Part shown: positions 15,029-32,342 of the stretch, piece after piece
How positions within the stretch are numbered: position 1 is the first letter of the stretch
How the letters are laid out: each line of letters opens with the position of its first letter
From: Actinomycetota bacterium
GTDB lineage: Bacteria > Actinomycetota > Actinomycetes > S36-B12
DNA length: 36,571 nucleotides
Direction of reading: 5' to 3'
NCBI GenBank assembly: GCA_017857875.1
Contig: JAFMCH010000014.1
Span: 1 to 36,571 of the forward strand
Notes under the pieces: generated by a model
What the model was told of the DNA's origin: nothing
The model's database searches: none
The model's input: only the letters and a program-made list of their open reading frames with translations
Program-made: the position numbers and the translations under genes

Positions 15029-15168
15029 GACCTCCACGCTCAAGAAGGTACAAACATCCGACTAATTTTGCGAAACGAGATCGGGGTTGCTGTCTTTTCG
15101 TTAGTCTAATGTGTCATATTCCTCACCCAAACATCAGATCTTTAATCCCACAGGGAAAGGTGCCCACC
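15029..15168 (+). promoter_or_regulatory. gap with possible internal promoter
   Basis: This 140-nt gap is the largest within the plus-strand operon and is AT-richer than its surroundings. It contains a near-palindrome CGTTAG-T-CTAATG (15099-15111) sharing the GTTAGT arm with the candidate TetR operator at 12403. It may carry a promoter for the PPDK-like pair. No confident -35/-10 pair was found. AGGGAAAGG (15152-15160) serves as ribosome-binding site for the GTG at 15169. Confidence 0.3.
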
Positions 15169-15786
15169 GTGAGTGAGCAGGAGTTATCGCTGGATTTCTT
15201 GGCAGTCCACGGCCTTGCCGTACGCAAGGCTGCCGGCCCCGGTGCCGTCGCCGACTTGCTGAACGCAGACGAGACCGCAGTGGCCGCTATTTTCGACGCG
15301 GCCATGGCCGAGGGAAAGATAGCCGGAGCCAAGGGCATCTTCATGGTGGCACCGGCAGGGCAGGCCTGGCTGGCGGATCAGTACCCCGTTGTGTATGCCA
15401 CCGCCCGCGAAGACGGAGAACTAACGGCTGCGTATGAGAGATTCGAGCGAGTGAACACGCAATTGTTGGCGTTGTTCACCGACTGGCAAACGATGCCCGC
15501 AGGAGGTCAGCGGGTACCGAATGACCATTCAGATCCTGACTACGACCGTGTGATTATTGACCGACTCGGCGACCTTCATGAGCGGGCCGAGCGAGTGGTC
15601 GGCAGCTGTAGCGCAGCTCAGCCACGACTTGGTCGTTATCTTGAGCGACTAGAGGCCGCTTACGACAAGGTCCTCGCGGGAGACACCGATTATGTCAGTG
15701 GCGTGCGTATCGACAGTTACCACACGGTGTGGTTTGAACTTCATGAAGACCTACTTCGCATGCTCGGTCGCCAGCGTCAGGAGTGA
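15169..15786 (+). CDS. uncharacterised partner protein of PPDK-like enzyme
   Basis: About 205 aa, starting from the GTG at 15169 with AGGGAAAGG 8 nt before it; an upstream ATG at 15109 lies in apparent leader. The N-terminal 70 residues (FLAVHGLAVRKAAGPGAVADLLNADETAVAAIFDAAMAEGKI) look like a winged-helix-type fold with a beta-wing. The second half is helical and ends in SGVRIDSYHTVWFELHEDLLRMLGRQRQE, with conserved-looking aromatic and acidic residues. I cannot name a characterised family. The next gene starts 4 nt after its stop, so it is almost certainly a dedicated partner of the PPDK-like protein, perhaps supplying substrate binding or the missing C-terminal function. No signal peptide or membrane segment. 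Confidence 0.75.
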   Translation: MSEQELSLDFLAVHGLAVRKAAGPGAVADLLNADETAVAAIFDAAMAEGKIAGAKGIFMVAPAGQAWLADQYPVVYATAREDGELTAAYERFERVNTQLLALFTDWQTMPAGGQRVPNDHSDPDYDRVIIDRLGDLHERAERVVGSCSAAQPRLGRYLERLEAAYDKVLAGDTDYVSGVRIDSYHTVWFELHEDLLRMLGRQRQE

Positions 15787-15790
15787 ATCT

Positions 15791-17554
15791 GTGAGTCATC
15801 CCGAACAACGAATAATTGTTCTTGACGGCACCGACGTGCCAGACAGGGACATCATCGGGGGTAAGGCTTGGAGCATCGCTCGGATGACCAAGCTTGGGTT
15901 GCGGGTGCCGCCTGCATTCGTGATTCCAATTTCTGAATGCGCGCGCTATCACGAAAATTCGCGCACATTGGATGACGACCTGTGGAATCAGATCATGTCC
16001 GGCGTGACGTCGATCGAGCAGGCGACGGGTCGAGTAATGGGTGATCCTGAGGCACCGCTGCTTGTATCTGTGAGATCGGGTGCAGCAGTGAGCATGCCAG
16101 GAATGATGGATACCGTGCTCAATCTCGGCATTACCGATGAGGTCGAGTCGGGCCTAGCTGCTATTACGGCCGATGCGGGTTACGCACGAGACACTCATGC
16201 GCGGTTTTGCCACACATACGGAGACATTGTACTGAAAGCAGACTTGGATCCGTACGTGTGCGGGCCGAGCCCGCTGGAGGTTCGTGATCTCGTTGCCGCC
16301 GACGTAGGTCGTTCGATCCCTGAAAATCCTTACGATCAATTGCGGCAGGCTATTTGTGCTGTCTTCGACTCTTGGGAGTCGGCTCGTGCCAAGAGTTATC
16401 GCAGGCATTGGGGTATCTCCGACGTTGGCGGCACCGCGGTCACGATCCAGGCAATGGTTTTCGGGAACCTAGGTGATGAGTCGGGCACTGGGGTGTTGTT
16501 CACACGAAACCCATTGACAGGGGAATCGGTGCCCTATGGCGAGTGGCTGCCCGGGGGGCAGGGCGATGACGTCGTGGGGGGAACCCACGCGGTGAAGGAT
16601 CTCACCGAGCTTGCCCGGACTATGCCGAACGTGCACTCGGAGTTACTTGAGTGGGCTGGGATTCTCGAGAATGAGCACGCAGATGTTCAAGACGTCGAGT
16701 TCACCGTTGAGAAGGGTGTGCTCTATTTGTTGCAGACCCGAGGTGCGAAGCGTTCGCCCGAAGCAGCCGTTCAGATAGCGATTGACTTGGTCCAGGAAGG
16801 GCTGATAACCGCCGAGATTGCTTTGAGTCGCGTCACGCCTGAGCAAATTCGTTCCGTACTCCTTCCTTACCTGGCTGAGCAAACGGTAGCCAATGTGACA
16901 CCGATTGCTCTCGGCGAACCGGCATGCCCCGGGGTAGCTCAGGGGATCGGCGTAGTGGATCCCGACGAAGTGGAATCCCGTGCTGTTGCAGGCGAAAACC
17001 TGGTACTGGTGCGACCAACAACGAGCCCCAATGACGTGCACGGAATGATCGCTGCGGTGGCGGTGGTCACGGATCTGGGTGGATCGACTTCGCACGCGGC
17101 GGTCGTCACTCGAGCTCTGGGTCGCCCGAGCGTTGTTGGTGTGGGTGACGGGGTGGCCGAAGGCTTAGCGGGCAAGGAGCTGACGGTGGACGGAGGGAGC
17201 GGGCGCGTTTATGCGGGCTACCTTCCGTTGGAGTCAACCCGGATCGATGATCACCCTGCACTAGCACCACTAGCAGCCTGGGCTAGCGAACACTGTCCCG
17301 TGCAGGTAGTTCCCCACACGGAGGGGGAAGTTGTTGATCTGGATTCCGTTGCGCAGGTCCTCGACCCACAAACGGGGCGAGTGGACGCGCAGGCACTGAT
17401 GGAGGCATTGAGTCAAGCGTCGGGTCCGGTTCGTTCATCTGTATTGGAATCCGCTGAAGGCGCGAGCGCGCTGTTGGAATCTGGCGTGACGGTGGTCGTC
17501 GCTGATCCTGCATTGCCACTGCAGTTGCGGCTGATTCAGTCGGATAGACCGTGA
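15791..17554 (+). CDS. PPDK-like protein: ATP-grasp plus phosphohistidine domain, lacking the C-terminal barrel
   Basis: About 587 aa from the GTG at 15791 (AGGAG just upstream; the longer frame from 15692 lies inside the previous gene). Residues 20-320 are a canonical pyruvate phosphate dikinase N-terminal domain: GGKAWSIARM, SVRSGAAVSMPGMMDTVLNLG, GVLFTRNPLTGE and VQDVEFTVEKGVLYLLQTRGAKR. Residues 375-475 are the swivelling domain with phosphorylatable His435 in GGSTSHAAVVTRALGRPSVVG. A full PPDK or PEP synthase continues with a PEP/pyruvate TIM barrel bearing a catalytic Cys; here only about 100 divergent residues remain. It can plausibly make a phosphohistidine from ATP, but the acceptor must be bound elsewhere. 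Short mycobacterial PpdK has the same truncated architecture. Confidence 0.88.
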   Translation: MSHPEQRIIVLDGTDVPDRDIIGGKAWSIARMTKLGLRVPPAFVIPISECARYHENSRTLDDDLWNQIMSGVTSIEQATGRVMGDPEAPLLVSVRSGAAVSMPGMMDTVLNLGITDEVESGLAAITADAGYARDTHARFCHTYGDIVLKADLDPYVCGPSPLEVRDLVAADVGRSIPENPYDQLRQAICAVFDSWESARAKSYRRHWGISDVGGTAVTIQAMVFGNLGDESGTGVLFTRNPLTGESVPYGEWLPGGQGDDVVGGTHAVKDLTELARTMPNVHSELLEWAGILENEHADVQDVEFTVEKGVLYLLQTRGAKRSPEAAVQIAIDLVQEGLITAEIALSRVTPEQIRSVLLPYLAEQTVANVTPIALGEPACPGVAQGIGVVDPDEVESRAVAGENLVLVRPTTSPNDVHGMIAAVAVVTDLGGSTSHAAVVTRALGRPSVVGVGDGVAEGLAGKELTVDGGSGRVYAGYLPLESTRIDDHPALAPLAAWASEHCPVQVVPHTEGEVVDLDSVAQVLDPQTGRVDAQALMEALSQASGPVRSSVLESAEGASALLESGVTVVVADPALPLQLRLIQSDRP

Positions 17555-18183
17555 CGTTGATCTCCCATGATCGACCTCGCGGACTGTTGGTTGATTGGGG
17601 CGGGGTGATGACACAACCACTGCGTGAATGCATAGCGGAATGGGCACGGTCGGAGAGCCTGAACCCGGAGGGCATCATGTCTTCGCTGACGGAGTTAGTC
17701 GTGGGCGGAGATAATCCACTGCAGGCGCTAGAGATTGGACAGTTATCACGGCCAGATGTGGCGCCTTGGCTGGCGGGCGTGTTTGCTTCACACGGACCCG
17801 AACCAGATCCGGACAATCTCTTTGAGCGCATGTTTGCACCGCTCCGCACGAACATTGAAATGCGCGATTTGCTCTGCGATGTGAAGTCACAGGGTTTACG
17901 TACAGGTCTGATCTCAAACTCTTGGGGCGACTCCTATGACCGGACGCTGTGGGATGAGGCATTCGATGCTGTTGTCATAAGCGGTGAGGTGGGGCTGCGT
18001 AAGCCGAGCATGGAAATCTTCGAGCTGGCTTTGTCTCTCATTGACTTGCCGGCCGAGGAAGTCGTGTACGTTGATGATGAGTACCCCAATGTCCTTGCGG
18101 CGGCCTCCTACGGACTCCGGGCCGTTCATTGCGATCCCAATGATCCATTACGTGTCCAAAGGGTCCGGGAAGCGGTCATTTAA
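17551..18183 (+). CDS. HAD-superfamily hydrolase (HAD-IA)
   Basis: The 210-aa product has motif I VDWGGVM with Asp15; the residue two positions on is Gly17 rather than Asp, as in YihX-like DLGN or DFGG variants. ISNSW is motif II, GLRKPSMEIFELAL contains the motif III lysine and VVYVDDEYPNV is motif IV. The resemblance to the HAD domain of ACAD10 and YihX-type phosphatases suggests a phosphate-ester hydrolase. The start is a GTG overlapping the PPDK-like stop (17551-17554). It may remove phosphate from a product of the PEP-synthase-like protein or protect against side products (inference). Confidence 0.85.
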   Translation: MTLISHDRPRGLLVDWGGVMTQPLRECIAEWARSESLNPEGIMSSLTELVVGGDNPLQALEIGQLSRPDVAPWLAGVFASHGPEPDPDNLFERMFAPLRTNIEMRDLLCDVKSQGLRTGLISNSWGDSYDRTLWDEAFDAVVISGEVGLRKPSMEIFELALSLIDLPAEEVVYVDDEYPNVLAAASYGLRAVHCDPNDPLRVQRVREAVI

Positions 18184-18184
18184 A

Positions 18185-19576
18185 ATGTCCAACCCCGTTG
18201 AATTTGATGTTGAGTCTCTGACTGTCGGATTCGCCAATTCAGATCTGTCACCGGTCGAGGTCGCCCAGGCTTGCCTTGACGCCATCAGCGAAATCAATCC
18301 GGCGCTCAATGCGTTCACCGATTTCGACGCGGATTCAGCGCTTGCTCAGGCGAAGTCGAGTGAACTTCGATGGCGACAGGGAACCGCCTTGGGGCGTCTG
18401 GATGGTATCCCCGTTGCGATCAAGGACACGATGGCCATGCGCGGCTGGCAAACGCGCAAAGGTTCCCTGCAAACGGTCGGTGCCGCAGAGGAAACGCAAG
18501 ATGCACCAGCGGTGGCGCGGTTGCGGGAGGGAGGGGCGGTGTTTCTGGGTAAGACCACCACACCGGAATTTGGCTGGAAAGGTGTCGGTGATTCACCTCT
18601 CACCGGGATCACTCGCAACCCCTGGGATCAGCAGCGCACGACCGGAGGGTCATCTGCTGGTTCCGCAGCAGCGGTTGCGACCGGTATGGCAGTTTTGGCG
18701 ACCGGAACCGATGGAGGTGGTTCAGTTCGTATGCCGGCGGCATTTTGTGGAATCTTTGGGCTGAAACCGACATTTTCCGTTATTCCCGTCTTTCCTCCGT
18801 CTACCGGCGGCACCTTGTCCCACGTTGGTCCGATGACTCGAACGGTGGCCGATGCCGCCGCGATGATGGAGGTAGTGGCTCGCGCGGATGCCCGCGAGAT
18901 TTACCCGGTGCCTGAAGATGCAAGCCCTTGGGTGAGTGAGTTGGGCCGTGGAATAGATGGACTGCGCATTGCCTATTCTCCCGATTACGGCTACGCCGAT
19001 GTGGATCCGCAGATAGCGGCTGCAGTGCAAGCCGCCACTTTGTTCATGCAAGACGCCGGTGCCACCGTGGAGTTGATCGACCCGCCCTTTGAAGATCCTC
19101 GTGAAGATTTCTGCACCATTTGGGACGCAATGTTGTCCATGGCGCTACTGGGGGTAGCGCCGGAAAAATTGGTGGATAGCGACCCCGGCCTCGTGGCAAC
19201 CTTTGAACGCGGCAGCAAACTCACCGCGCAGGATTACCTGAATGCGGAAAAGGCACGGCTTCGAATGAGCAAGTCACTCGCTGAGTTATTTAGTTCATAC
19301 GACCTGCTCATCTCGCCGCAGATGTCGACGGTTGCTCTTCCGGTTGGTCAAGATGTGTGGGACACAGATTTGCAAGATCATTGGACGCAGTGGACCCCCT
19401 TCACCTACCCGCATAACCTTTCGCGCTGCCCGGCGGCCAGTGTTCCGGTCGGACTCACAGACGATGGTTTGCCGATGGCAATGCAGATAGTGGGACGGCA
19501 CTTTGATGATCGTCTTGTGCTGCGTGCGGCTGCTCGATACGAGGCAGATAATCCATTTCCGCGGTGGTCCAACTAA
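18185..19576 (+). CDS. amidase (amidase-signature family)
   Basis: About 463 aa from the ATG at 18185, one base after the HAD stop; a longer frame from 17984 overlaps the HAD gene and is rejected. The Ser-cisSer-Lys triad is complete: Lys80 in VAIKDTMA, Ser156 in TTGGSSAGSAAAVA and nucleophile Ser180 in GTDGGGSVRMPAAFCG. The family hydrolyses amides such as aryl, fatty or peptide amides; the substrate is not predictable. It is the last gene of the plus-strand operon, followed by a strong hairpin terminator. No transit or signal sequence. The link with the PPDK-like genes is only by operon position. Confidence 0.92.
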   Translation: MSNPVEFDVESLTVGFANSDLSPVEVAQACLDAISEINPALNAFTDFDADSALAQAKSSELRWRQGTALGRLDGIPVAIKDTMAMRGWQTRKGSLQTVGAAEETQDAPAVARLREGGAVFLGKTTTPEFGWKGVGDSPLTGITRNPWDQQRTTGGSSAGSAAAVATGMAVLATGTDGGGSVRMPAAFCGIFGLKPTFSVIPVFPPSTGGTLSHVGPMTRTVADAAAMMEVVARADAREIYPVPEDASPWVSELGRGIDGLRIAYSPDYGYADVDPQIAAAVQAATLFMQDAGATVELIDPPFEDPREDFCTIWDAMLSMALLGVAPEKLVDSDPGLVATFERGSKLTAQDYLNAEKARLRMSKSLAELFSSYDLLISPQMSTVALPVGQDVWDTDLQDHWTQWTPFTYPHNLSRCPAASVPVGLTDDGLPMAMQIVGRHFDDRLVLRAAARYEADNPFPRWSN

Positions 19577-19590
19577 GTCGATCGCAAAAC

Positions 19591-19632
19591 CATAACGAGC
19601 GGGGCCGCATGAAGCAGGCCCCGCTCGTTATG
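19591..19632. terminator. bidirectional hairpin terminator
   Basis: A 16-bp perfect stem (left arm CATAACGAGCGGGGCC at 19591-19606, right arm GGCCCCGCTCGTTATG at 19617-19632) encloses a 10-nt loop. It sits between the convergent amidase gene (stop at 19576) and the minus-strand 516-aa gene (stop at 19644). There is no long T-run on either side, but the stem is GC-rich and symmetric, as in many actinobacterial terminators. Confidence 0.85.
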
Positions 19633-19643
19633 AATAGACCGTG

Positions 19644-21194
19644 CTACCAGCGGCGCAGTGCTGCGACATCGTCAGCGCGCAGTGTCGAACCTTTACCCTT
19701 CAGCTGGAACGAGTTTTCCTGCGTGGCCCGGTAAAGGGCATCAGCTTCGGGGGTTCCAGCGTTGTACTTCACCCACTGGTCGTCGTAGTTGACGAAGTTG
19801 CCAGCAATAGTGGAGGAAGTGAATCCGCGAGCAAGTGCATTCGCCTCATCCTGGGTGAGTTTGCCTCGCGTGGTTGTGTACTTGCCGGTCTTAGGTGGCA
19901 GTGCGCTGCTGCCACCGCGGATTGGGCCCACACTTGCGGTGTAGTTATCGTCGTTCAGCACGGAATTAGGGATCTTTGACCACATGTCCGAGCTTTGCCC
20001 TGACCACTTGCTCATGGTGTAAGGGCTCTCTTGCTGTGAGCTGAGTGAGATATAGCCGACGAGTTCAGCGATCGCGAAGTTGCCATACTCGTCATTGAAC
20101 AATGGCCGCATCCGCTGGACACGCTCTTCCACGAGCATCCAGTCGTTGGTGTCGTAGACACCCGCGATGTGTGCAAGATCCTTCGGTACGGAGTAGTACA
20201 CCAGTAGACCCGCATCAATCATCTGCTCGCGACTCCAGCCAGCCATCCGCTTCCACAACTCTGCAGTGACTCGCTGCATCTGGTCGCGCATGTGATCGAG
20301 GTAGTCCGCCATATCGCTGGCGTTCTCCATGTGAACCGGGATGTAGCCATTAGACAGATAGTCCGACGTGTATAGCCCGACTGCAACCATGTTGTCGTGG
20401 TCGTATGACGGTGTCGCCTCGAATGAACCCCAGTCATCGACGATATTGAAGTGAGTGTCCTTCATGATGACGGGAAGGGTGATGTTGTTGTGCTCGATCT
20501 CTGAAGCGACACCATCAAGCCAGGGGTAGTCACCCTCAGCGAGGTCGACAAAGTCGCGGACGAGCATCTCCTTGTCGCCGACCTTATAAGGCCCCGAATT
20601 GTGAATGCCCAGTCGGCACTCGCAATTCTTGAGGAAGGCGTACTGCGAGGCCGTTGCGAGGAACTTCACCACTGCGGTATGCAACTTGTCACCCGGCTTG
20701 CAGCCCAGAGCATCGGCCTCGAAAACCTGCAAGGTTCGCTCGGGTAGTAGTTGCGCACGGTTGTTCATATCGCTGTTGAGCGTGTAGCCGCTTTGTCGAT
20801 GGTAGGAGCGATTTACCCGCTGCGCGAAATCGAGAACGTACTTGACATCTTCGATTCCGTCGGTGGGGTTGATCATGCCCATATCAAGAAGGAACTGACG
20901 ACCGCCAAGGTAGAACTGCTGAATGATACCCAGCATGATCGCATTGGCCGACATAGAAACCTCACGAGCGCGCGCGCCCAGCTCTTCGGGGCTCATAACC
21001 GCTTCGATCTTCCGGAAGATCTCGGGATATCGGTACCAGGCGTTGTAGTAAGACAGTGCGATGTAGGGGTTTACCGGAAAGAGCTTGGACTCCTGAACGG
21101 TCCGGGTGGTGCATTGCCAGTAGAAGATGTCACTGGACTTTTGCAGGAACTGGTTAAGGTCTTGCAACTCTGCGGGTGTGATGTTCGCGGGCAT
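19644..21194 (-). CDS. 516-aa protein of unknown family, partner of phosphohistidine-domain protein
   Basis: I do not recognise a characterised family. The 516 residues are rich in Tyr, Trp, Met and Asn, appear mostly helical, and contain striking segments such as IFYWQCTTRTVQESKLFPVNPYIALSYYNAWYRYPEIF (about 23-60), YAFLKNCECRLGIHNSGPYKVGDKE and THFNIVDDWGSFEATPSYDHDNMVAVGLY. There is no signal peptide or membrane helix. It lies 20 nt downstream of the stand-alone phosphohistidine-domain gene on the same transcript. In split PEP-synthase-like enzymes the component of this size holds the acceptor substrate (compare the middle domain of rifampicin phosphotransferase or phenylphosphate synthase subunit 1). 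That role is inferred from position, not from sequence similarity. Confidence 0.8.
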   Translation of the reverse strand: MPANITPAELQDLNQFLQKSSDIFYWQCTTRTVQESKLFPVNPYIALSYYNAWYRYPEIFRKIEAVMSPEELGARAREVSMSANAIMLGIIQQFYLGGRQFLLDMGMINPTDGIEDVKYVLDFAQRVNRSYHRQSGYTLNSDMNNRAQLLPERTLQVFEADALGCKPGDKLHTAVVKFLATASQYAFLKNCECRLGIHNSGPYKVGDKEMLVRDFVDLAEGDYPWLDGVASEIEHNNITLPVIMKDTHFNIVDDWGSFEATPSYDHDNMVAVGLYTSDYLSNGYIPVHMENASDMADYLDHMRDQMQRVTAELWKRMAGWSREQMIDAGLLVYYSVPKDLAHIAGVYDTNDWMLVEERVQRMRPLFNDEYGNFAIAELVGYISLSSQQESPYTMSKWSGQSSDMWSKIPNSVLNDDNYTASVGPIRGGSSALPPKTGKYTTTRGKLTQDEANALARGFTSSTIAGNFVNYDDQWVKYNAGTPEADALYRATQENSFQLKGKGSTLRADDVAALRRW

Positions 21195-21214
21195 TTTGTG
21201 TGCACAACCTCTCG

Positions 21215-21913
21215 TCAGGAGACCTTTGCGATGCGTGCGCGAAGTGAGTCATCTCGCTCAGCGTAGGCATCGGTAGCGGGCTTGGAGTATTCGACGACGA
21301 TGCGATCGCCATCGGCCAGACCATCAAGTTCTGCGGCCATGAGGCAGGGGATGTCGTATTCGCGGGTCAAGATGCCCAGGTGCGAGCGGATCGTGCCACC
21401 CATGCAGACAACTCCGGCGAAGCCTTCCAGGATGGGGGCCGTCAGGGTGCCGCCAGAATCATCAATGACGGCGATGGTGCCCTCGGGTACCCCGTTCATG
21501 AGCATGTCCATCACCACCTCAACGGTGCCGACGAATCGTGCGGTTCCCTCGAGATCAGTTGCTTGGAAGACATTGTCTCCGGTGCCGACCACGAGGCGGC
21601 CATTCTCGTCGCTTACCTGGTTGCCCGAGTTACCCACGCCAGCAATCGGCTGATATTTCTCGGGTTCCTCTTCGATCGACACCTGGGCTGACATGGTGAA
21701 GCGGTAGCCCGTAGCGAGCAGATCGGCCTCGATCTTTTCAAAGTCGGCTCGAGTCAGCTCCAGTGCAGGATCTTGCACCGCTTCCTGCCAGGTCTTGCCC
21801 GATGCAGCAAAGCGTTCGGCAACGAGTTTGCGGATTGACGAATGATAAAACTCCAAAACCTCGCTCATGGCCGGCTTGCCCCACTTATCGGCGAGGATAT
21901 TTGGCTCGCTCAT
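21215..21913 (-). CDS. stand-alone PEP-utilising-enzyme mobile (phosphohistidine) domain protein
   Basis: The 232-aa product has a helical N-terminal part (1-75) and a C-terminal swivelling domain (about 140-212): GTIAVIDDSGGTLTAPILEGFAGVVCMGGTIRSHLGILTREYDIPCLMAAELDGLADGDRIVVE. His178 in the TIRSHLGIL segment matches the phosphorylatable histidine of PEP synthase, PPDK and phenylphosphate synthase. It has neither an ATP-grasp nor a TIM barrel, so it must receive phosphate from another protein; the only ATP-grasp dikinase domain in the window is at 15791. Excellent AAGGAGGT ribosome-binding site. An inverted repeat similar to the GntR-type sites lies 19 nt upstream of the ATG. Confidence 0.82.
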   Translation of the reverse strand: MSEPNILADKWGKPAMSEVLEFYHSSIRKLVAERFAASGKTWQEAVQDPALELTRADFEKIEADLLATGYRFTMSAQVSIEEEPEKYQPIAGVGNSGNQVSDENGRLVVGTGDNVFQATDLEGTARFVGTVEVVMDMLMNGVPEGTIAVIDDSGGTLTAPILEGFAGVVCMGGTIRSHLGILTREYDIPCLMAAELDGLADGDRIVVEYSKPATDAYAERDDSLRARIAKVS

Positions 21914-21931
21914 GGCACCTCCTTAAGTCGC

Positions 21932-21954
21932 GTCGAGACATCTGATCACTCGAC
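21932..21954. promoter_or_regulatory. inverted repeat, candidate GntR operator (site C)
   Basis: A 23-bp interrupted palindrome centred on T21943 has arms GTCGAG (21932-21937) and CTCGAC (21949-21954) and inner ATC/GAT. Its core ACATCTGAT (21938-21946) matches ACATCCGAT at 22105-22113 and ACATATGAT at 28856-28864. It lies just upstream of the phosphohistidine-domain gene. TTGACT on the minus strand (21988-21993) could be a -35, but the matching -10 is poor. Confidence 0.5.
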
Positions 21955-22103
21955 GTCGTCAGCGTCAGTTCACGTCCGATCGTGCTGAGTCAACCTAGCG
22001 GTTAGCGATCCTTGGCGGAAGGGATTCCGTGAGAAAAAAATGCGGGAAACGGAAATCCTTAAATCGGTTGCGCAGACTCGATCGACCCGTCAAGGTGGCA
22101 ATT

Positions 22104-22121
22104 AACATCCGATGTCTAACG
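22104..22121. promoter_or_regulatory. candidate GntR operator (site A)
   Basis: AACATCCGATGTCTAACG contains the 11-bp palindrome ACATCCGATGT and is identical at 16 of 18 positions to site B at 28855-28872, beside the GntR gene. It lies 51 nt before the SDR start codon, where the transcript would begin. The recurrence 6.7 kb apart in two promoter regions is the reason to call it an operator. Confidence 0.6.
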
Positions 22122-22172
22122 GCGTGGATTGGGCGGTAGCGCGGCGCTGATCACGAACTGGAGGAGGTACTG

Positions 22173-22958
22173 ATGGGCAGCATGATGAGTGGTAAGACCG
22201 TCGTTCTGACGGGGGCGAGTTCGGGTATCGGTAAAGCGGCAATGGAACTCCTGTGCGCCGAGGGCGCCAACGTGGTGGCGTCTGCGCGAACCGCAGATCG
22301 CCTTCAGGCTGCCGTCGACGAGGTGGTGCAGGCGGGTGGTTCGGCGATCGCGGTTGCTGCGGACATGAGCAATGACGAGCAGGTCGGCCGCGTCATAGAT
22401 GCGGCTAAGGCTGAGTTCGGTGGCTTGGATGTGCTGATCAATAACGCAGGGGTCGGTTACGGGTACCGCGATCAACGCCCGAACAGCATGCTTGCGCTCG
22501 TTGAGTCGCCCCTTGAGGATTGGCACCACGTGATGGGAATCAATCTCGATTCCGTCGTATTTGCCTCTCGCAGGGCGCTTCCGGTAATGATCGAGCAGCG
22601 CAGCGGATCAATCGTGAACGTTGCCAGCATCTTGGGCATGGTCGGGCACCACGATGCCCATGCCTATACGACGGCTAAAGGCGCAATCATCAACTTGACA
22701 CGCTCCATGGCAAAGACCTACGGACCATTCAACGTTCGCAGCAACGTGTTGGCGCCCGGATACATCGATACCCCGATGATTGCTGACTACACCGAGTACC
22801 TGAACGCCGATGAGACGCGAGCGGGATGGGGCTGCCCAATGGAGCGCACCGGTACGCCACAGGAGATCGCAAATTCGATTCTGTATCTAAGTTCAGATAT
22901 GTCGACGTACACCAATGGCTTGGTCATGGCCGTTGACGGCGGATTCACGGCCTGCTAA
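22173..22958 (+). CDS. SDR-family oxidoreductase (FabG-like)
   Basis: The 261-aa classical SDR has the cofactor motif TGASSGIG (13-20), NNAG (90-93) and catalytic Ser152, Tyr165 and Lys169 (YTTAKG), ending in GLVMAVDGGFTAC. A somewhat long stretch (VGYGYRDQRPNSMLALVESPLEDW) after NNAG enlarges the substrate region. It probably oxidises or reduces a secondary alcohol/ketone. Very strong ribosome-binding site (GGAGGAGGT). Candidate operator site A lies upstream. The next gene starts 4 nt after its stop, so the two SDRs form an operon divergent from the phosphohistidine module. Arg39 after the second strand suggests NADP (inference). Confidence 0.9.
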   Translation: MGSMMSGKTVVLTGASSGIGKAAMELLCAEGANVVASARTADRLQAAVDEVVQAGGSAIAVAADMSNDEQVGRVIDAAKAEFGGLDVLINNAGVGYGYRDQRPNSMLALVESPLEDWHHVMGINLDSVVFASRRALPVMIEQRSGSIVNVASILGMVGHHDAHAYTTAKGAIINLTRSMAKTYGPFNVRSNVLAPGYIDTPMIADYTEYLNADETRAGWGCPMERTGTPQEIANSILYLSSDMSTYTNGLVMAVDGGFTAC

Positions 22959-22962
22959 CTCA

Positions 22963-23715
22963 ATGTCGGATCCGCGGGTACACATCATTGCTGGTGGCAG
23001 TAAAGGCATCGGGTTAGAGACGGCATTGGCCGTATCAAATCCGGGAGACACGGTGGTGCTCGGATTTCATTCCGATGTCGAGTCAGCAAACAAGGCGGTT
23101 GATCGTTGTCGCGACGAGGGAGTGACGGCTCAACTCCTTCAGGTGGACATGGGTGCGGTTGGCGGCGCCGATGAGATCGTGCGTGCTGCTGTCGAAACCT
23201 CTCTTCCACTTGGTCACATCGTGCACAGTGTGGGCGAGGTGATCCGAGACGAACTGACGAACATGACCCAAGAGCAGTTCGCTCATGCACTTCAAGCCAA
23301 CGGCACTTCACTATTAGACATGGTGCGATGTGCAATGCCGGCCCTGCTTCCGGGCAGCACGGTCTTGTATGTCACCAGCAGAGGCAGTCGATCTGTGTAT
23401 CCGAAATATGGATCGCTCGGGCCCGCGAAGGCGCTTGCCGAGGCTCTCGTTCGGTATTTGGCCGTCGAACTGGCTCCCAAGGGCGTCCGCGTGAATGCGT
23501 TTGCACCAGGTGCGCAGGACACGACCGCGTTGCGTGCAGTGTTCGGTGACGCAACCCCGGATGTTCTCGCGGCAGCGCTGAAGAAGAATCCGCTGGGTCG
23601 ACTGGTTGAACCGGACGACTATCGGCCCCTGGTTCGGTTCATCAGTTCACCGGACGCTTCAATGATTACCGGACAGGTCTTCTACGTTCACGGCGGTGCG
23701 GACCTGCTGTCTTGA
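22963..23715 (+). CDS. divergent SDR with enoyl-reductase-type (Y-x6-K) active site
   Basis: About 250 aa from the ATG at 22963, 4 nt after the previous stop; the longer frame from 22915 overlaps the first SDR. The cofactor motif is AGGSKGIG (10-17) rather than TG-x3-GIG, NNAG is replaced by HSVGE, and the active site is Tyr149-x6-Lys156 (YGSLGPAK), the spacing of FabI/FabL enoyl-ACP reductases rather than the Y-x3-K of classical SDRs. The C terminus (GQVFYVHGGADLL) is also of that kind. It probably reduces an enoyl or keto group with NADPH. Why it is paired with a classical SDR under the same promoter is unknown. Confidence 0.87.
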   Translation: MSDPRVHIIAGGSKGIGLETALAVSNPGDTVVLGFHSDVESANKAVDRCRDEGVTAQLLQVDMGAVGGADEIVRAAVETSLPLGHIVHSVGEVIRDELTNMTQEQFAHALQANGTSLLDMVRCAMPALLPGSTVLYVTSRGSRSVYPKYGSLGPAKALAEALVRYLAVELAPKGVRVNAFAPGAQDTTALRAVFGDATPDVLAAALKKNPLGRLVEPDDYRPLVRFISSPDASMITGQVFYVHGGADLLS

Positions 23716-23716
23716 T

Positions 23717-23740
23717 CTCGGGACCTGACTATTCCCCGAG
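23717..23740 (+). terminator. weak hairpin after SDR pair
   Basis: CTCGGG (23717-23722) and CCCGAG (23735-23740) form a 6-bp stem with a 12-nt loop, followed by TTTGG. It lies between the convergent SDR and carboxyltransferase-like genes and partly inside the latter's 3' end. The stem is short, so this is a tentative call. Confidence 0.25.
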
Positions 23741-25189
23741 TTTGGCGACTGACAGATCGTAGTTTTCTGTGCTGACCCGAAAGTATGGAGTGTTCACTGA
23801 TCGCATGAGTGACCTGATCTGCTCGATCTCGTCAGAACCCATCGGGAATTCCTGACGCACCGGACCAGCTGCCCTCATCGCTGCGAGGTCTGTCTCTGGC
23901 ACGAGGAACCTAAGAATCAATTCGTCGTCGTTGGTGGTGTCGTAGGTGCGTCGAAGTTCGTCAATTGAGGGTTCTTCAGGTGGATTACTTGCCACTTCTT
24001 TCCACCTGGGTTGCTCCATCATCCGATCCATGATGGCCGCGTCAATCGGTGCAGGAGGAGTCCCGTAATAGCCGGCGGCATACATCAAGTTTTCGGTGGG
24101 TACTACTGAGTACCGATCCCCGGTCACGACGTTGAGGACGGCCTGGATTCCGACCAGTTGGCTCACCGGGGTCGCCATGATCGGATATCCAAGCTCACGT
24201 CGTACCCGTCCTGCCTCCTCGAATACCTCATCAAGTCGATGCGACATCTCATACTGGGCAAGCTGCGCCTTGAGCGTTCCAGTCATTCCCCCCGGTACCT
24301 GGTGGGAGATATTCGTCAGGTCGTATTCGGCCGCTTGATTGACCAGATAGCCCATAGCGTTACCCACTCGTTCCATATGATCTGCCACGGCAGGAAACAA
24401 GCTTGTGTCGAGCGAATGGGTGAAACCAAGGACTTCAGCGTTGCGCACCATGACCTCTGTTGATGGCACGGATGGCCCATTCGCCATTGGCCGGCTGGCA
24501 GTGTGAATAACGGACACGCCATGCTGGATTGCTTCGCAGTAGGCCAGTGTCGAGGTGCCCATCAGGTTATTGGAATGCATCTCGACAGGCTTGCCACCAG
24601 CCGCGGCGACAATCTTGGGCACTAACGTGCGGATGCGATCAGGGAGCAATACTCCAGCGGTGTCGTAAAACAAGATGGTGTCGACTCCATCGATCGCTGC
24701 CATGTTGGCAACCTGCTCTGCGAACAGTTCATCGGTGTGAATAGGGGACTGAGTGAAGAACACGGTCCCAGCGATCTCTGAGCCGAATTCTTTGGCTACG
24801 CGAGCAAGTCGATCAATGTGGTGGAAGTTGTAGAGGACGTCGTAGATCCAAAACGATCGGACACCATGACGATTGAGTTGACGCATCCAAGCATCCATCA
24901 GGTCAGGGGGAGTGATTCCCATGCTGACTGCGGCGTTGGAGCGCATCCCACCGCGGGTGGGAGTTCGCGTGATCTGCGCCTGGATGAGGTCTAAGCCGGC
25001 CCAAGGATCCTCACGGCAGAACTTGATGAGCACTTCCATAAACGAAGAAGCAGCCAGATCGATCCGGCTGAAGCCGGTGCGATCGAGAGTTCCGGCGACC
25101 GGCAGTGCATGAGCCGCTTGCATACGCATGCCCCATAGGCTCTGCTGGCCATCGCGCAGGGTCTCATCGAGGAAGTCCAGATGGGGCAT
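23729..25189 (-). CDS. carboxyltransferase-like protein (OadA/pyruvate carboxylase CT family), copy 1
   Basis: About 486 aa from the ATG at 25189 (AAGGAG at 25195-25200; a GTG at 25195 would bury that site). The N-terminal HMGL-like TIM barrel starts with LRDGQQSLWGMRM (Asp13 is the metal ligand), and the C-terminal PYC_OADA domain shows PGGMTGTLKAQL and YPIMATPVSQLVGIQAVLNV. The carbamylated lysine of the family (IKDM in OadA) is Tyr175 (LFYDTAG), and the metal-binding HxH is H205-S-N207. Two active-site ligands are thus changed, so classical pyruvate/oxaloacetate chemistry is unlikely. It has no biotin domain. It is last in the GntR, thiolase, ligase operon and is a paralogue of the protein at 30843. 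It could be a carboxyltransferase for another ketone-like substrate, a lyase, or a non-catalytic subunit. Confidence 0.82.
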   Translation of the reverse strand: MPHLDFLDETLRDGQQSLWGMRMQAAHALPVAGTLDRTGFSRIDLAASSFMEVLIKFCREDPWAGLDLIQAQITRTPTRGGMRSNAAVSMGITPPDLMDAWMRQLNRHGVRSFWIYDVLYNFHHIDRLARVAKEFGSEIAGTVFFTQSPIHTDELFAEQVANMAAIDGVDTILFYDTAGVLLPDRIRTLVPKIVAAAGGKPVEMHSNNLMGTSTLAYCEAIQHGVSVIHTASRPMANGPSVPSTEVMVRNAEVLGFTHSLDTSLFPAVADHMERVGNAMGYLVNQAAEYDLTNISHQVPGGMTGTLKAQLAQYEMSHRLDEVFEEAGRVRRELGYPIMATPVSQLVGIQAVLNVVTGDRYSVVPTENLMYAAGYYGTPPAPIDAAIMDRMMEQPRWKEVASNPPEEPSIDELRRTYDTTNDDELILRFLVPETDLAAMRAAGPVRQEFPMGSDEIEQIRSLMRSVNTPYFRVSTENYDLSVAKLGE

Positions 25190-25191
25190 AA

Positions 25192-26721
25192 TCACTCCTT
25201 GTTGTGTGCGTGTGCAATGAGTTGTTCGCGCAGGGTCGTTTTCAGCACCTTGCCGGCCCCATTTCTGGGTAACTCGGTGATCAGGTGGTACTCCTTGGGG
25301 CGCTTGTAACGGGCCATCATTGACAGGCAGTGTTCGTCGAGGCTGCGTTCAAATCCGTGCGCGTCTTCATCCGGCTGGAGTACGACAAATGCGGCCAGTC
25401 GTTCGCCCCATTCCTCATCCGGGACGCCGATGACCGCAACATCCAGAACACCGGCATGCTGCCTGAGCGTTTGTTCCACCTCGCGCGGGTAAATGTTTGC
25501 GCCACCAGAGATGACTAGGTCTTTGCTGCGATCCAACAGGGTGAGCAAACCTGCATCGAATCGCCCTAGATCACCGGTGAACAGCCATCCATCGCGGAGG
25601 GTTTCCGCAGTTGCCTCTGGGTTGTCAAGGTAACCGGCCATGACCGTCGGGCCCTTGACGATGACTTCTCCAATTTCCCCGTCTTGGACTGTGTTTCCGT
25701 TGTCGTCAACGACGCGCACCTGAGTTCCGATGCGTGGCGCGCCCACGGATTCCAAAGCCGCACGATTGTTTGCGGCAGCAGCCGTGGCGATAGCACGGGG
25801 GCCCATCGCCGTAATCGTGCACGGGGACTCACCCTGCCCGTAGCCGTTCCATAGCCGCGCGCCGAAGGTTTCCATTCCGGCGATGAGGTCTTCGGCGAGG
25901 ACGGGTGCCGCACCGACGAGAACCGTACCCATTCGTTCCACCGGTGCTGCCTTGATTTCCGGTGCGGAACAAAGGCGGCGAAGCATGATCGGAGGAACAA
26001 AGAACGTCATGTTGTCCCGAGTTCTCATAAGCGTTGCGACATGCGCTGGATCCGTACTCGACGGGACAATCTGCGCTGCTCCTTTAGCGATAAAGGGAAG
26101 AGCGAAAAGCCCTGAAGCGTGGCTTTGCAATGCGAGGTGAAGCAAACTTGACCGTTCATCAACCCATTCAACGTCGGCGCAGTAGGCAGTTGTCATGGCC
26201 CACAAATTTGCGTGGGTGAGCCGTGCACCCTTTGGCTTGCCTGTCGTGCCAGAGGTGAAGAAGATCCAGGCATCGTCCTCGGGGCGGCGGTCAACGATGG
26301 GAAGTGGATGGAAACTGCGCTCATGGTCCAGGTTCTCGGCAGTCAAGATACGGATCTTGTCTGGATTGGCGCACACGTCCATGAGTTCGTCGGCTAGGTC
26401 TTCACCAACCCAGGTAAGTTGCGCATCAACGTCGTTGATGATGCTGGCGGCCTCTCGGGCGTGGAGCATGCTGCTCAGAGGTACGGCCACTGCGCCAGCC
26501 CACCAGATTGCGAAGAGTGCTTCGATGTAGTCGGGGCGATTCTTCAGGTAAAGGACGACTCGGTCACCCGGCTTGACGCCAGACTCATGGAGCGCTCCCG
26601 CTCGACAGGAGACCCGGTGTGCGAGTTCACGGTAGTCACAATCTGTCTGGTCATCGACGACGATCGCCGGTTGGTCGGCGAAGACCCGGGCGCTCTCGGC
26701 GAGCGCATGAGCGGTATTCAT
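25192..26721 (-). CDS. acyl-CoA synthetase (AMP-forming), copy 1
   Basis: The 509-aa product is an ANL-superfamily adenylating enzyme: P-loop-like FFTSGTTGKPKGARLTHANL, WNGYGQGESP (A5 region), GWLFTGDLGRFDAGLLTLLDRSKDLVISGGANIYPREVEQ (A7-A8), and the C-terminal catalytic Lys in LPRNGAGKVLKTTLREQL. It activates a carboxylic acid as an acyl adenylate and transfers it to CoA. Its ATGA overlaps the thiolase stop, and its own stop lies 2 nt before the start of the carboxyltransferase-like gene. The order thiolase, ligase, carboxyltransferase-like mirrors the second operon at 30843-35020, which suggests that it activates a carboxylated product (inference). Confidence 0.92.
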   Translation of the reverse strand: MNTAHALAESARVFADQPAIVVDDQTDCDYRELAHRVSCRAGALHESGVKPGDRVVLYLKNRPDYIEALFAIWWAGAVAVPLSSMLHAREAASIINDVDAQLTWVGEDLADELMDVCANPDKIRILTAENLDHERSFHPLPIVDRRPEDDAWIFFTSGTTGKPKGARLTHANLWAMTTAYCADVEWVDERSSLLHLALQSHASGLFALPFIAKGAAQIVPSSTDPAHVATLMRTRDNMTFFVPPIMLRRLCSAPEIKAAPVERMGTVLVGAAPVLAEDLIAGMETFGARLWNGYGQGESPCTITAMGPRAIATAAAANNRAALESVGAPRIGTQVRVVDDNGNTVQDGEIGEVIVKGPTVMAGYLDNPEATAETLRDGWLFTGDLGRFDAGLLTLLDRSKDLVISGGANIYPREVEQTLRQHAGVLDVAVIGVPDEEWGERLAAFVVLQPDEDAHGFERSLDEHCLSMMARYKRPKEYHLITELPRNGAGKVLKTTLREQLIAHAHNKE

Positions 26722-27947
26722 CGCCTGGGTGATTCCAGTATCGTGACGGCGACGGCAGCCTCCTCGACTCCCACAAGACCACCGCTGTTCTCGGCCAAGG
26801 CCAACTTGGCCCCTTCGACCTGGCGGGCACCGGCCTCTCCGCGAAGTTGAGTAACGAGTTCAAAAATTTGGGCGAGGCCCGTTGCTCCGATGGGATGGCC
26901 ACGAGATTCGAGTCCACCTGAGGGATTCACGGGGACACGGCCACCCAGCGCAGTCTCCCCACGCATCGCCGCTAGGCCGCCCTCGCCGTAAGGCACGAGT
27001 CCCATGTGCTCGACTTGCTGAATCTCACCGACGGCCGTTGCATCGTGGACCTCGGCAACATCAATGTCTGAGGGTGCAACCTCAGCGTCGGAGTAGGCGA
27101 GTTGCGCCGTTCGCGGGCTGACATGTTGGGTGACGTCAACGCCATCCCAATTGCCCCCGTGACCAATGCGTTGGGCACGGATCCGAACCGCGCGTTTCGG
27201 ATCGCGCGCGGTGGAAGTGATGACGGCTGCTGCGGCGCCGTCGCTGACAGGGGAGCACATCGGAATAGTCAAGGGCCACACGACTGCTCGTCCAGCGAGG
27301 ACCTCGTCCACGGTGAAAGGTTTTTGATATTGGGCACGAGGATTGTGCACTGAGTGCATGTGGTTCTTTGCGCTGACCGCTGCCAGTTGCGCTTGAGTGC
27401 TCCCGAATCGGGCCATATGGTCTCGCGCAAAAGCGGCGTAGATATCCATAAACACCGTGCGGTTGGCCAGCTCGTCGGCGTCCGTGGGAATAACGGTGTC
27501 TTTCCCCCAGGCGGTGAGTCGCTCAATGCTTTGGTCACGATCTTCGACGTTCCAACTGCCCTCGAAGGCGGCGAGAAGTTCTTCCAGTGGTGCTTGGGTC
27601 ATGACTTCGGATCCAACCGCCAGAGCGGTCCTTGCCATTCCGGATTGAACATACGCCGTGGCGACCTGCATCGCGGTAGTTGCACTGCAGCAAGCATTTT
27701 CGACATTGATGATCGGAATTGGGCGTAGACCTAGCCCGGCAAGTGCCAACTGACCGCGAATGCCATGCTGCCCCCCCATCGCTCCCCAGGTGGCATTCGC
27801 AAACACCACGACGTCAACATCGTTGGCTTCAAGTGATGCATCCGCGAGGGCATCTCGCGTGGCAGCTAGAGCCAGGCTGGCGACCGACTCCTCGCGATGA
27901 CGACCGAATCTGGTCATGCCGACGCCGGTGATCAATGGAGTGGTCAT
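26718..27947 (-). CDS. SCPx-type thiolase / lipid-transfer-like acetyltransferase
   Basis: The 409-aa product belongs to the SCP2-thiolase-like branch: MTTPLITGVGMTRFGRH at the start, the nucleophile Cys in VENACCSATTAMQVA (Cys87 most likely), AEVHDATAVGEI with the conserved His, and GLESRGHPIGATGLAQIFEL. Many members cleave branched or cyclic 3-oxoacyl-CoA, for example in steroid side-chain breakdown, and some need a DUF35 partner, which is not visible here. A GAGAGGA sequence serves as ribosome-binding site. It lies 60 nt downstream of the GntR gene and overlaps the ligase gene. Together with two classical thiolases in the window it points to several C-C cleavage steps. Confidence 0.9.
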   Translation of the reverse strand: MTTPLITGVGMTRFGRHREESVASLALAATRDALADASLEANDVDVVVFANATWGAMGGQHGIRGQLALAGLGLRPIPIINVENACCSATTAMQVATAYVQSGMARTALAVGSEVMTQAPLEELLAAFEGSWNVEDRDQSIERLTAWGKDTVIPTDADELANRTVFMDIYAAFARDHMARFGSTQAQLAAVSAKNHMHSVHNPRAQYQKPFTVDEVLAGRAVVWPLTIPMCSPVSDGAAAAVITSTARDPKRAVRIRAQRIGHGGNWDGVDVTQHVSPRTAQLAYSDAEVAPSDIDVAEVHDATAVGEIQQVEHMGLVPYGEGGLAAMRGETALGGRVPVNPSGGLESRGHPIGATGLAQIFELVTQLRGEAGARQVEGAKLALAENSGGLVGVEEAAVAVTILESPRR

Positions 27948-28007
27948 GAGGGTGGTCCTCTCGGTTGCTGTGGTGACGTTGGTGAGCGCGCGTCAGTGCG
28001 AGTGGGC

Positions 28008-28757
28008 CTATCTCTGTCTAGATACGGTTGCGGGCACGCTGTCGGGCAGGTCGATAAGTAGACCGTCTCCGGGGGGCGCGGCCGAAATTTGGAGGTACTC
28101 CTTGAGCCAACGCTCGGACTCTGAGACGTGAATCGTGGCGGCAGACCGGGCGAGAACTGAGTCGCGGTCGGCGAGTGCATCCAAAATGAGCGAGTGCTGA
28201 GCAAGTGTCATCGTTTTGATTCCGCTTAAGGACGCGCGCCAGATTCGGGCGCGCAATGCCCGAGTCGAAATAGCGTCCAGAATCGAACATAGGCTTGAAT
28301 TGCCTGTTGCGGCGGTTATTTGCGAGTGAAACTGGATGTCGCTCAGCACTAGTTCCCCTGGATCGTGGGCGCTACGCATCGTGGCCAGACTTTCACGGAG
28401 GGATGCCACCTGATCATCGGTGATTCGCTGGGCAGCGAGTGCCGTAGCCGCAGGTTCGAGGAGTTTTCGAACCTCGAACACCTCCACGAGTGTGGAGTCC
28501 TGCATGAGATCAACGACGAATGACAATCCAGAAAGGAGCAGATCAGGCTCCAAGCTTGTCACGTAGGTGCCATCGCCACGGCGTACGTCGAGAACCTTTG
28601 CCTGGCTGAGAGCCTTGACCGCCTCGCGCAATGAACTGCGAGAGATGCCCAACATGGAGGCAAGTTCCTGTTCTGGCGGGAGCCGGTCCCCCGGTGCCAT
28701 CTGTCCTTCGGTAATCAAATCCCGAATCTTCATGATGGCAGCGTCGGTTACGCTCAT
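28008..28757 (-). CDS. GntR-family regulator, FCD (FadR-like) subfamily
   Basis: The 249-aa product has an N-terminal winged helix (about 5-68: ITEGQMAPGDRLPPEQELASMLGISRSSLREAVKALSQAKVLDVRRGDGTYV) and a C-terminal FCD ligand-binding domain whose helices carry the conserved His (QFHSQITAATGN). FCD regulators sense carboxylic acids or acyl-CoAs and usually repress. AGGGAGGGG is the ribosome-binding site. The gene is divergent from the biotin carboxylase operon; candidate operator site B lies between them, and similar sites A and C are found in the promoter region at 21914-22172. It is probably autoregulated and the local regulator of all three transcripts (inference). Confidence 0.92.
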   Translation of the reverse strand: MSVTDAAIMKIRDLITEGQMAPGDRLPPEQELASMLGISRSSLREAVKALSQAKVLDVRRGDGTYVTSLEPDLLLSGLSFVVDLMQDSTLVEVFEVRKLLEPAATALAAQRITDDQVASLRESLATMRSAHDPGELVLSDIQFHSQITAATGNSSLCSILDAISTRALRARIWRASLSGIKTMTLAQHSLILDALADRDSVLARSAATIHVSESERWLKEYLQISAAPPGDGLLIDLPDSVPATVSRQR

Positions 28758-28854
28758 GGGTGTCCCCTCCCTAGCGAGCAGTTGGCCCGCAAATTAGGGG
28801 GATATCTTCTCGCGAATCGTTGTGCACCGGTCAGCACACCGCTAGTCTGCCACA

Positions 28855-28872
28855 AACATATGATGTCTAACG
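28855..28872. promoter_or_regulatory. candidate GntR operator (site B)
   Basis: AACATATGATGTCTAACG differs from site A (22104-22121) only at the two central positions. The outer ACAT/ATGT arms are inverted repeats. It overlaps the predicted start point of the biotin carboxylase operon and lies in the divergent promoter region of the GntR gene. Confidence 0.6.
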
Positions 28873-28888
28873 ACAGATCACCGATTTC

Positions 28889-28906
28889 TAGCGGGAATTC
28901 CCGCTA
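28889..28906. repeat. 18-bp perfect palindrome in the 5' leader
   Basis: TAGCGGGAATTCCCGCTA reads the same on both strands with no mismatch. It lies downstream of the predicted promoter and 27 nt before the ribosome-binding site of the biotin carrier gene. It could be a second operator for a dimeric regulator or an RNA hairpin in the leader. It is unrelated in sequence to sites A-C. Confidence 0.6.
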
Positions 28907-28947
28907 AGGGCTCGGCAAAGGAGTCGACCATGAGGAGGAAAGAGCAG

Positions 28948-29451
28948 ATGTCACTCACCCCGGAGGATATTCGCGCACTCGTCAGCGCCTTTGAAACATC
29001 AGGCTGGGATGAGTTGTCGCTGCAGTTTGGTGAGACACGCCTGGACCTTTCTCGGTCCGGCCGGCCCCCGCAACGAGCCTCCGGATCATCGAATGACGTG
29101 TCGGTGCCGAGAGTTGAAGCGGCGCCACCCGTGGTGGCCTCGGTTGCCACCGCTGCCGAAACCACGCCGCGGTCGATTGCGCAGCCGTCTCCGGCGGCAC
29201 TACCTGCAGGCCACCAGGTGACATCGCCCTCGCTGGGACTGTTCTGGCGCTCCCCTCAGCCAGGTGCACCGGAATTCGTCGACGTTGGCCAGGTCGTCGA
29301 TGCTGAGGACACGGTATGCATCGTTGAGGTCATGAAACTTATGAATCACGTGAAGGCGGGTGTGAGCGGCACGGTTATCGCAATCAATGCGGATAACGGC
29401 GCGATGGTCGAATTTGGCCAGGCGCTCGTCGTCATCGATCCGGCACACTGA
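28948..29451 (+). CDS. biotin carboxyl carrier protein (AccB-like)
   Basis: About 167 aa from the ATG at 28948, which has AGGAGG at 9 nt; the ATG at 28930 precedes the ribosome-binding site and is rejected. The N-terminal 35 residues (LTPEDIRALVSAFETSGWDELSLQFGETRLDLSR) match AccB-type carriers, followed by a Pro/Ala-rich linker (about 38-90) and a biotinyl domain: GLFWRSPQPGAPEFVDVGQVVDAEDTVCIVEVMKLMNHV. Lys130 is the biotinylation site; the residue two before it is Val rather than the usual Ala (EVMKL versus EAMKM). It carries carboxybiotin between the carboxylase and the transferase. First gene of the plus-strand operon, 3 nt before the carboxylase. Confidence 0.92.
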   Translation: MSLTPEDIRALVSAFETSGWDELSLQFGETRLDLSRSGRPPQRASGSSNDVSVPRVEAAPPVVASVATAAETTPRSIAQPSPAALPAGHQVTSPSLGLFWRSPQPGAPEFVDVGQVVDAEDTVCIVEVMKLMNHVKAGVSGTVIAINADNGAMVEFGQALVVIDPAH

Positions 29452-29454
29452 TTC

Positions 29455-32303: not shown

Positions 32304-32342
32304 TTTGATGCCAGTGCACGGGGGAATTTAGGGAGGACATGG

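Follow-up and report, generated by a model that had tools for sequence, protein, structure and literature searches.

The gene pair at 19644-21913 of the 36,571-nucleotide contig analysed here (the window, in what follows) from a freshwater or marine Actinomycetota bacterium raises the question of how a lone phosphohistidine domain is charged, and to what it and its large, unfamiliar neighbour deliver the phosphate. Both open reading frames were found where the first-pass annotation had placed them, on the minus strand: SW232, a 232-residue swivel protein (21215-21913), and S516, a 516-residue protein that we propose to be the acceptor or substrate-binding subunit (19644-21194). They are separated by 20 bp, each is preceded by a Shine-Dalgarno-like sequence, and their third-position GC content (0.69-0.71) is of the coding type. 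SW232 is laid out as an N-terminal extension of approximately 110 residues followed by a swivel (PEP-utilising mobile) domain carrying His178, and the Pfam search returned PF00391 as its sole match (residues 143-207, E=4.9e-7), with no ATP-grasp domain and no TIM barrel, in agreement with the earlier description of a lone phosphohistidine domain. His178 lies in the context GGTIRSHLGI, and the pattern G[STA]xxSH[LIV][GA]I, including the histidine, is kept in all 27 swivels linked to S516 homologues (26 distinct genes); conservation of this residue had been named beforehand as a point on which the proposal could fall, and the histidine proved to be invariant. The whole genome (2.27 Mb, 97% complete) encodes three swivel domains in all, namely those of SW232, of a 587-residue short dikinase and of an ordinary full-length pyruvate phosphate dikinase elsewhere; none of the three has a phosphotransferase system (PTS) architecture, and identity as PTS enzyme I was rejected on this ground. 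Our main reading, to which we assign a probability of roughly 0.6, is that SW232 and S516 constitute the acceptor half of a small-molecule dikinase that is driven by ATP, consists of four proteins and has two phosphohistidine domains.

The absence of a recognisable family for S516 was borne out: searches of Pfam and NCBIfam gave no match, and nothing credible was found in the PDB with either the single sequence or a 20-sequence profile. Its homologues occur in 9 of 99 related genomes and in 6 of 396 sampled Actinomycetota (own genome counted in both), with 74-99% identity among Nanopelagicales-type MAGs, 51% on plasmids of Rhodococcus pyridinivorans P23 and R. oxybenzonivorans S2-17, 47% in Novosphingobium resinovorum SA1 and 25-28% in Paraburkholderia, Methylibium, R. 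opacus and Rhodococcus 008. The 20-member alignment delimits a conserved core at approximately residues 10-395, in which nine residues are invariant (R31, G98, R99, R194, G201, P202, Y203, P262 and Y333).

A swivel gene adjoins, or is fused to, the S516 homologue in essentially all loci where the contig allows, across phyla, and the pair is conserved in Nanopelagicales, Rhodococcus, Novosphingobium, Paraburkholderia and Methylibium. The exceptions are Novosphingobium, in which the swivel gene lies 6.5 kb downstream of the S516-type gene in the same cluster, and two other loci with a small ORF or a gap between the two genes. Fusions of swivel and S516-type core were found at five loci (L011, L013, L020, L021 and L023): an 802-residue protein of L011 (genome G092) and a 793-residue protein of L023 (R. 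opacus B4) each join the swivel, the S516-type core and a C-terminal homologue of a further protein, encoded in the window at 15160-15786, and the 592-residue protein of L013 and the third modules of two Rhodococcus plasmids (L020, L021) comprise the swivel and the core alone. Because they are fused to each other in other bacteria, SW232, S516 and the 15160-15786 protein are best regarded as one machine. Chance adjacency of the swivel and S516 genes was rejected, since the pair is conserved across genera and fused in several genomes. The AlphaFold2 model of S516, built from 7 close sequences, reached a pLDDT of 32.7 and does not settle the fold, which leaves a little room for S516 being an independent catabolic enzyme whose gene merely lies beside a swivel gene; the linkage across phyla argues so strongly against this that we consider it very improbable.

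The closest functional parallels are enzymes in which the same tasks are divided differently. Rifampicin phosphotransferase (RPH) has ATP-grasp, swivel and acceptor-binding parts (PMC4844700), in a single chain as opposed to the split proteins found here, and similarity to RPH extends over most of HpeH (PMC12167813). Like HpeHI, CreHI and PpsAB (phenylphosphate synthase), the present system has a phosphohistidine swivel with separate ATP-grasp and acceptor proteins, a predicted dependence on ATP and, as a shared trait, a phosphorylatable histidine on the acceptor side, present in every S516-linked swivel. The HpeH-type acceptor, however, is one RPH-related chain with a C-terminal swivel, whereas here the swivel is separate or N-terminal and S516 shows no relation to RPH by profile; the HpeI-type ATP-grasp subunit has no swivel and carries a PEP-synthase-type nucleotide loop, whereas the donor proposed here is of dikinase type with its own PF00391 domain; and the 15160-15786 protein is a fourth component that HpeHI, CreHI and PpsAB lack. 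In hhalign comparisons the S516 family matched RPH and RPH-like acceptors with a probability of 0.1-0.2% (E=0.3-0.4), and the positive controls gave 99.8% (RPH-like acceptors versus RPH) and 100% (near versus far S516 members). Membership of RPH was rejected, as S516 has no profile relation to the rifampin-binding domain and no PDB profile match; membership of the HpeHI/PpsAB/CreHI group was rejected because the acceptor profile test against the RPH type failed, HpeH-type acceptors being set apart through their RPH relatives. The system would thus work like a two-component dikinase yet stand outside that family, because S516 fails the acceptor profile test; a fold-level relation to RPH and HpeH acceptors may remain, the comparison being one of profiles. 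The earlier suggestion of a new acceptor-binding family is supported by the swivel fusions and by this want of a profile relation to rifampin-phosphotransferase acceptors, and we regard S516 as a probable new acceptor-side family and candidate substrate binder, a role to which the fusions and gene context point. Small-molecule dikinases would thereby gain an acceptor family that neither Pfam nor NCBIfam contains.

The proposed phosphoryl donor is the short pyruvate phosphate dikinase of 587 residues (15791-17554, plus strand; PF01326, E=2e-37; PF00391, E=9e-19), with a GTG start at 15791 in an ORF that may open at 15692. It scores 680.8 bits against NF004531 (cut-off 456) and 482.5 bits against TIGR01828; NF004531 describes PPDK lacking the PEP domain and, we assume, covers Rv1127c. 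Alignment with the genome's own full-length dikinase revealed equivalents of K22, R92, D321/E323, Q335/R337 and the swivel His455 (numbered, as we take it, after the Clostridium symbiosum enzyme), and no PEP/pyruvate barrel, the equivalents of R617, E745, N768 and C831 being absent from the window protein. Pyruvate phosphate dikinase is the evident source of the donor, with which it has the ATP-site and histidine residues in common, but the barrel is lost in the donor and inactivated in its relatives: the dikinases of L024, L045, L078 and L079 retain a barrel remnant in which the catalytic residues are replaced. Having no pyruvate/PEP site, the short dikinase cannot make PEP. All short or barrel-dead dikinases examined retain the histidine of their own swivel.

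In Nanopelagicales, Rhodococcus (L020, L021, L026), Novosphingobium, Paraburkholderia and L045, the other three genes lie beside a dikinase whose PEP end is absent or inactivated, and the four genes occur as a set in Rhodococcus P23 and S2-17 (two clusters), Novosphingobium SA1, Paraburkholderia PGU19, Rhodococcus 008 and L045, the last being an unrelated actinobacterium that carries all four. These operons and the intact ATP site support the ATP-grasp activity in trans that the first-pass annotation had predicted for the 587-residue protein, although the annotation overlooked the swivel histidine of that protein; likewise, its proposal of a split PEP-synthase-like phosphotransferase made of two proteins and an ATP-grasp in trans stands as regards a split system, which appears to have at least four parts. 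Across 11 loci, the four proteins show correlated evolutionary distances (r=0.91-0.97, Mantel p=0.0002), a correlation that falls to 0.46-0.87 among the 7 most distant loci and is partly caused by shared ancestry. The short dikinase is not a universal donor, because two genomes with distant S516-type loci lack one: G114, a single contig, has S516-type, swivel and coupler genes and an intact full-length dikinase elsewhere as its sole dikinase, and G420 has no dikinase-type match, only another PPDK_N protein. The G114 set lies at L047 9237-11441 and the dikinase elsewhere (also L100), and its donor would have to work in trans or be of another kind. At L086, three of the genes lie beside an annotated dikinase; this four-gene set (18678-29164, pRB98) adjoins bacterial microcompartment and SurE/HAD phosphatase genes.

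The two-protein view had omitted the protein at 15160-15786 (plus strand; approximately 208 residues; g15109, the ORF opening at 15109), which the C-terminal fusions to swivel and S516 in L011 and L023 place in the same machine and which we regard as a coupler candidate. Its AlphaFold2 model (pLDDT 80.4) consists of a winged helix and a helical bundle, and the fold search returned at best a weak MarR/winged-helix likeness (E above 0.06).

In the proposed mechanism, the short dikinase would bind ATP in its ATP-grasp domain and phosphorylate its own swivel histidine; the phosphoryl group would then pass to His178 of SW232, most likely from histidine to histidine, the 15160-15786 protein acting as coupler, and the SW232 swivel would carry it to an S516-bound organic compound with a hydroxyl (or enol) group. 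The phosphohistidine of the ATP-grasp partner itself is a reason to consider a relay. Alternatively, the SW232 swivel might enter the ATP-grasp site of the short dikinase directly, as HpeH does with HpeI, leaving the dikinase histidine as a bystander or competitor; HpeI, an ATP-grasp protein that has no swivel, nevertheless serves HpeH (PMC12167813), but retention of the donor histidine, both in short or barrel-dead dikinases and in mirror donors that have lost the ATP site, suggests that it is used, and we consider direct docking a possible but less favoured route.

These mirror donors were found at four loci (L073 7530-10810, L074 5605-8755, L075 2936-6144 and L077 5850-10315), at which a coupler homologue lies directly upstream of a dikinase-like protein of 842-965 residues. 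The ATP-site residues of these proteins are lost, and the swivel histidine and PEP-site residues are intact; RPH-like acceptors (C-terminal swivel, no ATP-grasp) are encoded near the mirror dikinase at three of the four loci (L073, L075 and L077). The arrangement looks like a PEP-driven version of the system, as judged from residues and gene order. The main argument for a His-to-His relay, an indirect one, is that both kinds of half-dikinase keep the donor histidine though each acceptor brings its own. A broader scheme, in which ATP-end or PEP-end half-dikinases feed exchangeable swivel and substrate-binding modules, of which S516 would be one, in a modular His-to-His phosphorelay for catabolism, is offered tentatively. 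If the relay is right, the likeness to PTS enzyme I/HPr would lie in one swivel donor serving exchangeable histidine-bearing acceptors; the PTS, however, is driven by PEP and uses HPr acceptors, whereas ATP is the proposed driver here and the acceptors are swivel domains.

Several acceptors may share one donor, as suggested by extra modules with no nearby donor of their own. Just upstream of the main operon, L020 (13314-16885) and L021 (13905-17109) carry two more swivel/S516-type modules, one split and one fused, so that the two Rhodococcus plasmids each hold three modules beside one donor dikinase. On the Methylibium petroleiphilum PM1 plasmid (L025 10315-14779), the S516-type gene, the swivel and the coupler (annotated as MarR) lie near methylmalonyl-CoA-mutase-type genes, and dead-barrel dikinases (L078, L079) are found approximately 25 kb to either side. 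The multiplicity of modules beside one dikinase on the Rhodococcus plasmids, together with the fusion of the S516-type core to the second swivel and not to the dikinase, speaks against a scheme in which the dikinase's own swivel phosphorylates the S516-bound substrate and SW232 acts as a regulator or phosphate buffer. This scheme, which we think improbable, draws on the Mycobacterium tuberculosis protein VadK (Rv1127c), which is barrel-less and, given ATP and Mg, phosphorylates its own swivel His422 in vitro (PMC13400623). VadK has the same domain make-up as the donor, but no S516-type acceptor module is known for it. The four-protein reading suggests what barrel-less dikinases do with their phosphate, namely pass it to a second swivel and a substrate-binding partner, and makes their downstream target a testable question.

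The pathway context points to phosphorylation of an organic acceptor. On the minus strand of the window lie genes for a pyruvate-carboxylase subunit B-like carboxyltransferase (23729-25195; PF00682, PF02436; a neighbour conserved in L014-L019), an AMP-forming CoA ligase (25192-26721; PF00501) and a thiolase of the lipid-transfer/sterol-carrier type (26718-27947; PF22691, PF00108), and on the plus strand lie genes for a biotin carboxyl carrier protein with the biotin site EVMKLMN (28930-29451; PF00364), a biotin carboxylase (29455-30846; PF00289, PF02786, PF02785), a second carboxyltransferase (30843-32303; PF00682, PF02436) and a second AMP-forming CoA ligase (32343-33827), the last most similar (55%) to the ligase of the Rhodococcus operon. 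Paralogous carboxyltransferase/CoA ligase/thiolase blocks (23729-27947 and 28930-35020) flank the single biotin carrier/biotin carboxylase pair, and both carboxyltransferases lack a lysine that, as we understand it, is carbamylated in pyruvate carboxylase. A tyrosine-phosphatase-type protein (Y_phosphatase3, PF13350) is encoded at 4313-5071 on the minus strand, and the Rhodococcus operon has a homologue of it (35%) close to its end. A HAD-family phosphatase-like protein (17551-18183, plus strand; PF13419/PF00702), whose gene start overlaps the short dikinase stop and whose gene order is conserved in L014 and L015, is a candidate for later phosphate removal; its motif I reads LLVDWGGV, with the second aspartate replaced.

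The two large Rhodococcus plasmids have the order swivel, S516-type gene, AMP ligase, coupler, short dikinase and biotin carrier, followed by biotin carboxylase, carboxyltransferase, an OB-fold protein, thiolase, tyrosine-type phosphatase and an SRPBCC protein; homologues of most of these genes are spread in the window over divergent blocks at 4-36 kb and do not form one operon. In Novosphingobium the carboxylase genes directly follow the S516-type gene. Distant S516-type loci have no carboxylase and belong to catabolic clusters of other kinds (cytochrome P450, aldehyde and alcohol dehydrogenases, phosphatases), and the S516 family as a whole is therefore not tied to carboxylation. The Hpe pathway for acetovanillone and 4-hydroxyacetophenone uses the kinase HpeHI, the biotin carboxylase HpeCBA, the phosphatase HpeD and the CoA synthetase HpeE, and HpeCBA carboxylates 4-phospho-acetovanillone, not acetovanillone (PMC9618137); a biotin carboxylase, phosphatase and CoA ligase likewise accompany the present system. 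By analogy, the phosphorylated compound, probably a ketone, would be the substrate of the biotin-dependent carboxylase encoded nearby; loss of the phosphate, ligation to CoA and cleavage by thiolase would follow. Because the operon content follows Hpe pathway logic, a ketone, perhaps a hydroxy-ketone, is a reasonable guess, and searches of the literature on the Rhodococcus and Novosphingobium host strains found no substrate linked to these genes; of the activity, phosphate route and substrate class that we infer, the last is the least certain. The system offers a way into a proposed catabolic route, in aquatic actinobacteria and on Rhodococcus plasmids, in which phosphorylation precedes carboxylation.

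A regulatory role, in which S516 would sense a metabolite and the phosphate would control enzymes rather than be placed on a substrate, has a precedent in VadK, reported as a regulatory histidine kinase with a proposed role in methylcitrate cycle regulation (PMC13400623), and would suit the winged-helix part of the 15160-15786 model. We consider it unlikely in view of the tight linkage to an Hpe-like carboxylase, ligase, thiolase and phosphatase pathway, and of the several diverged S516-type paralogues in one genome, which look like substrate specialisation. Finally, the RPH-like acceptors of the mirror loci also match NCBIfam NF004520 (PRK05865, an epimerase/swivel protein; L073 3641-5392), and proteins of this type could, as a lead, be acceptors for VadK-type dikinases.
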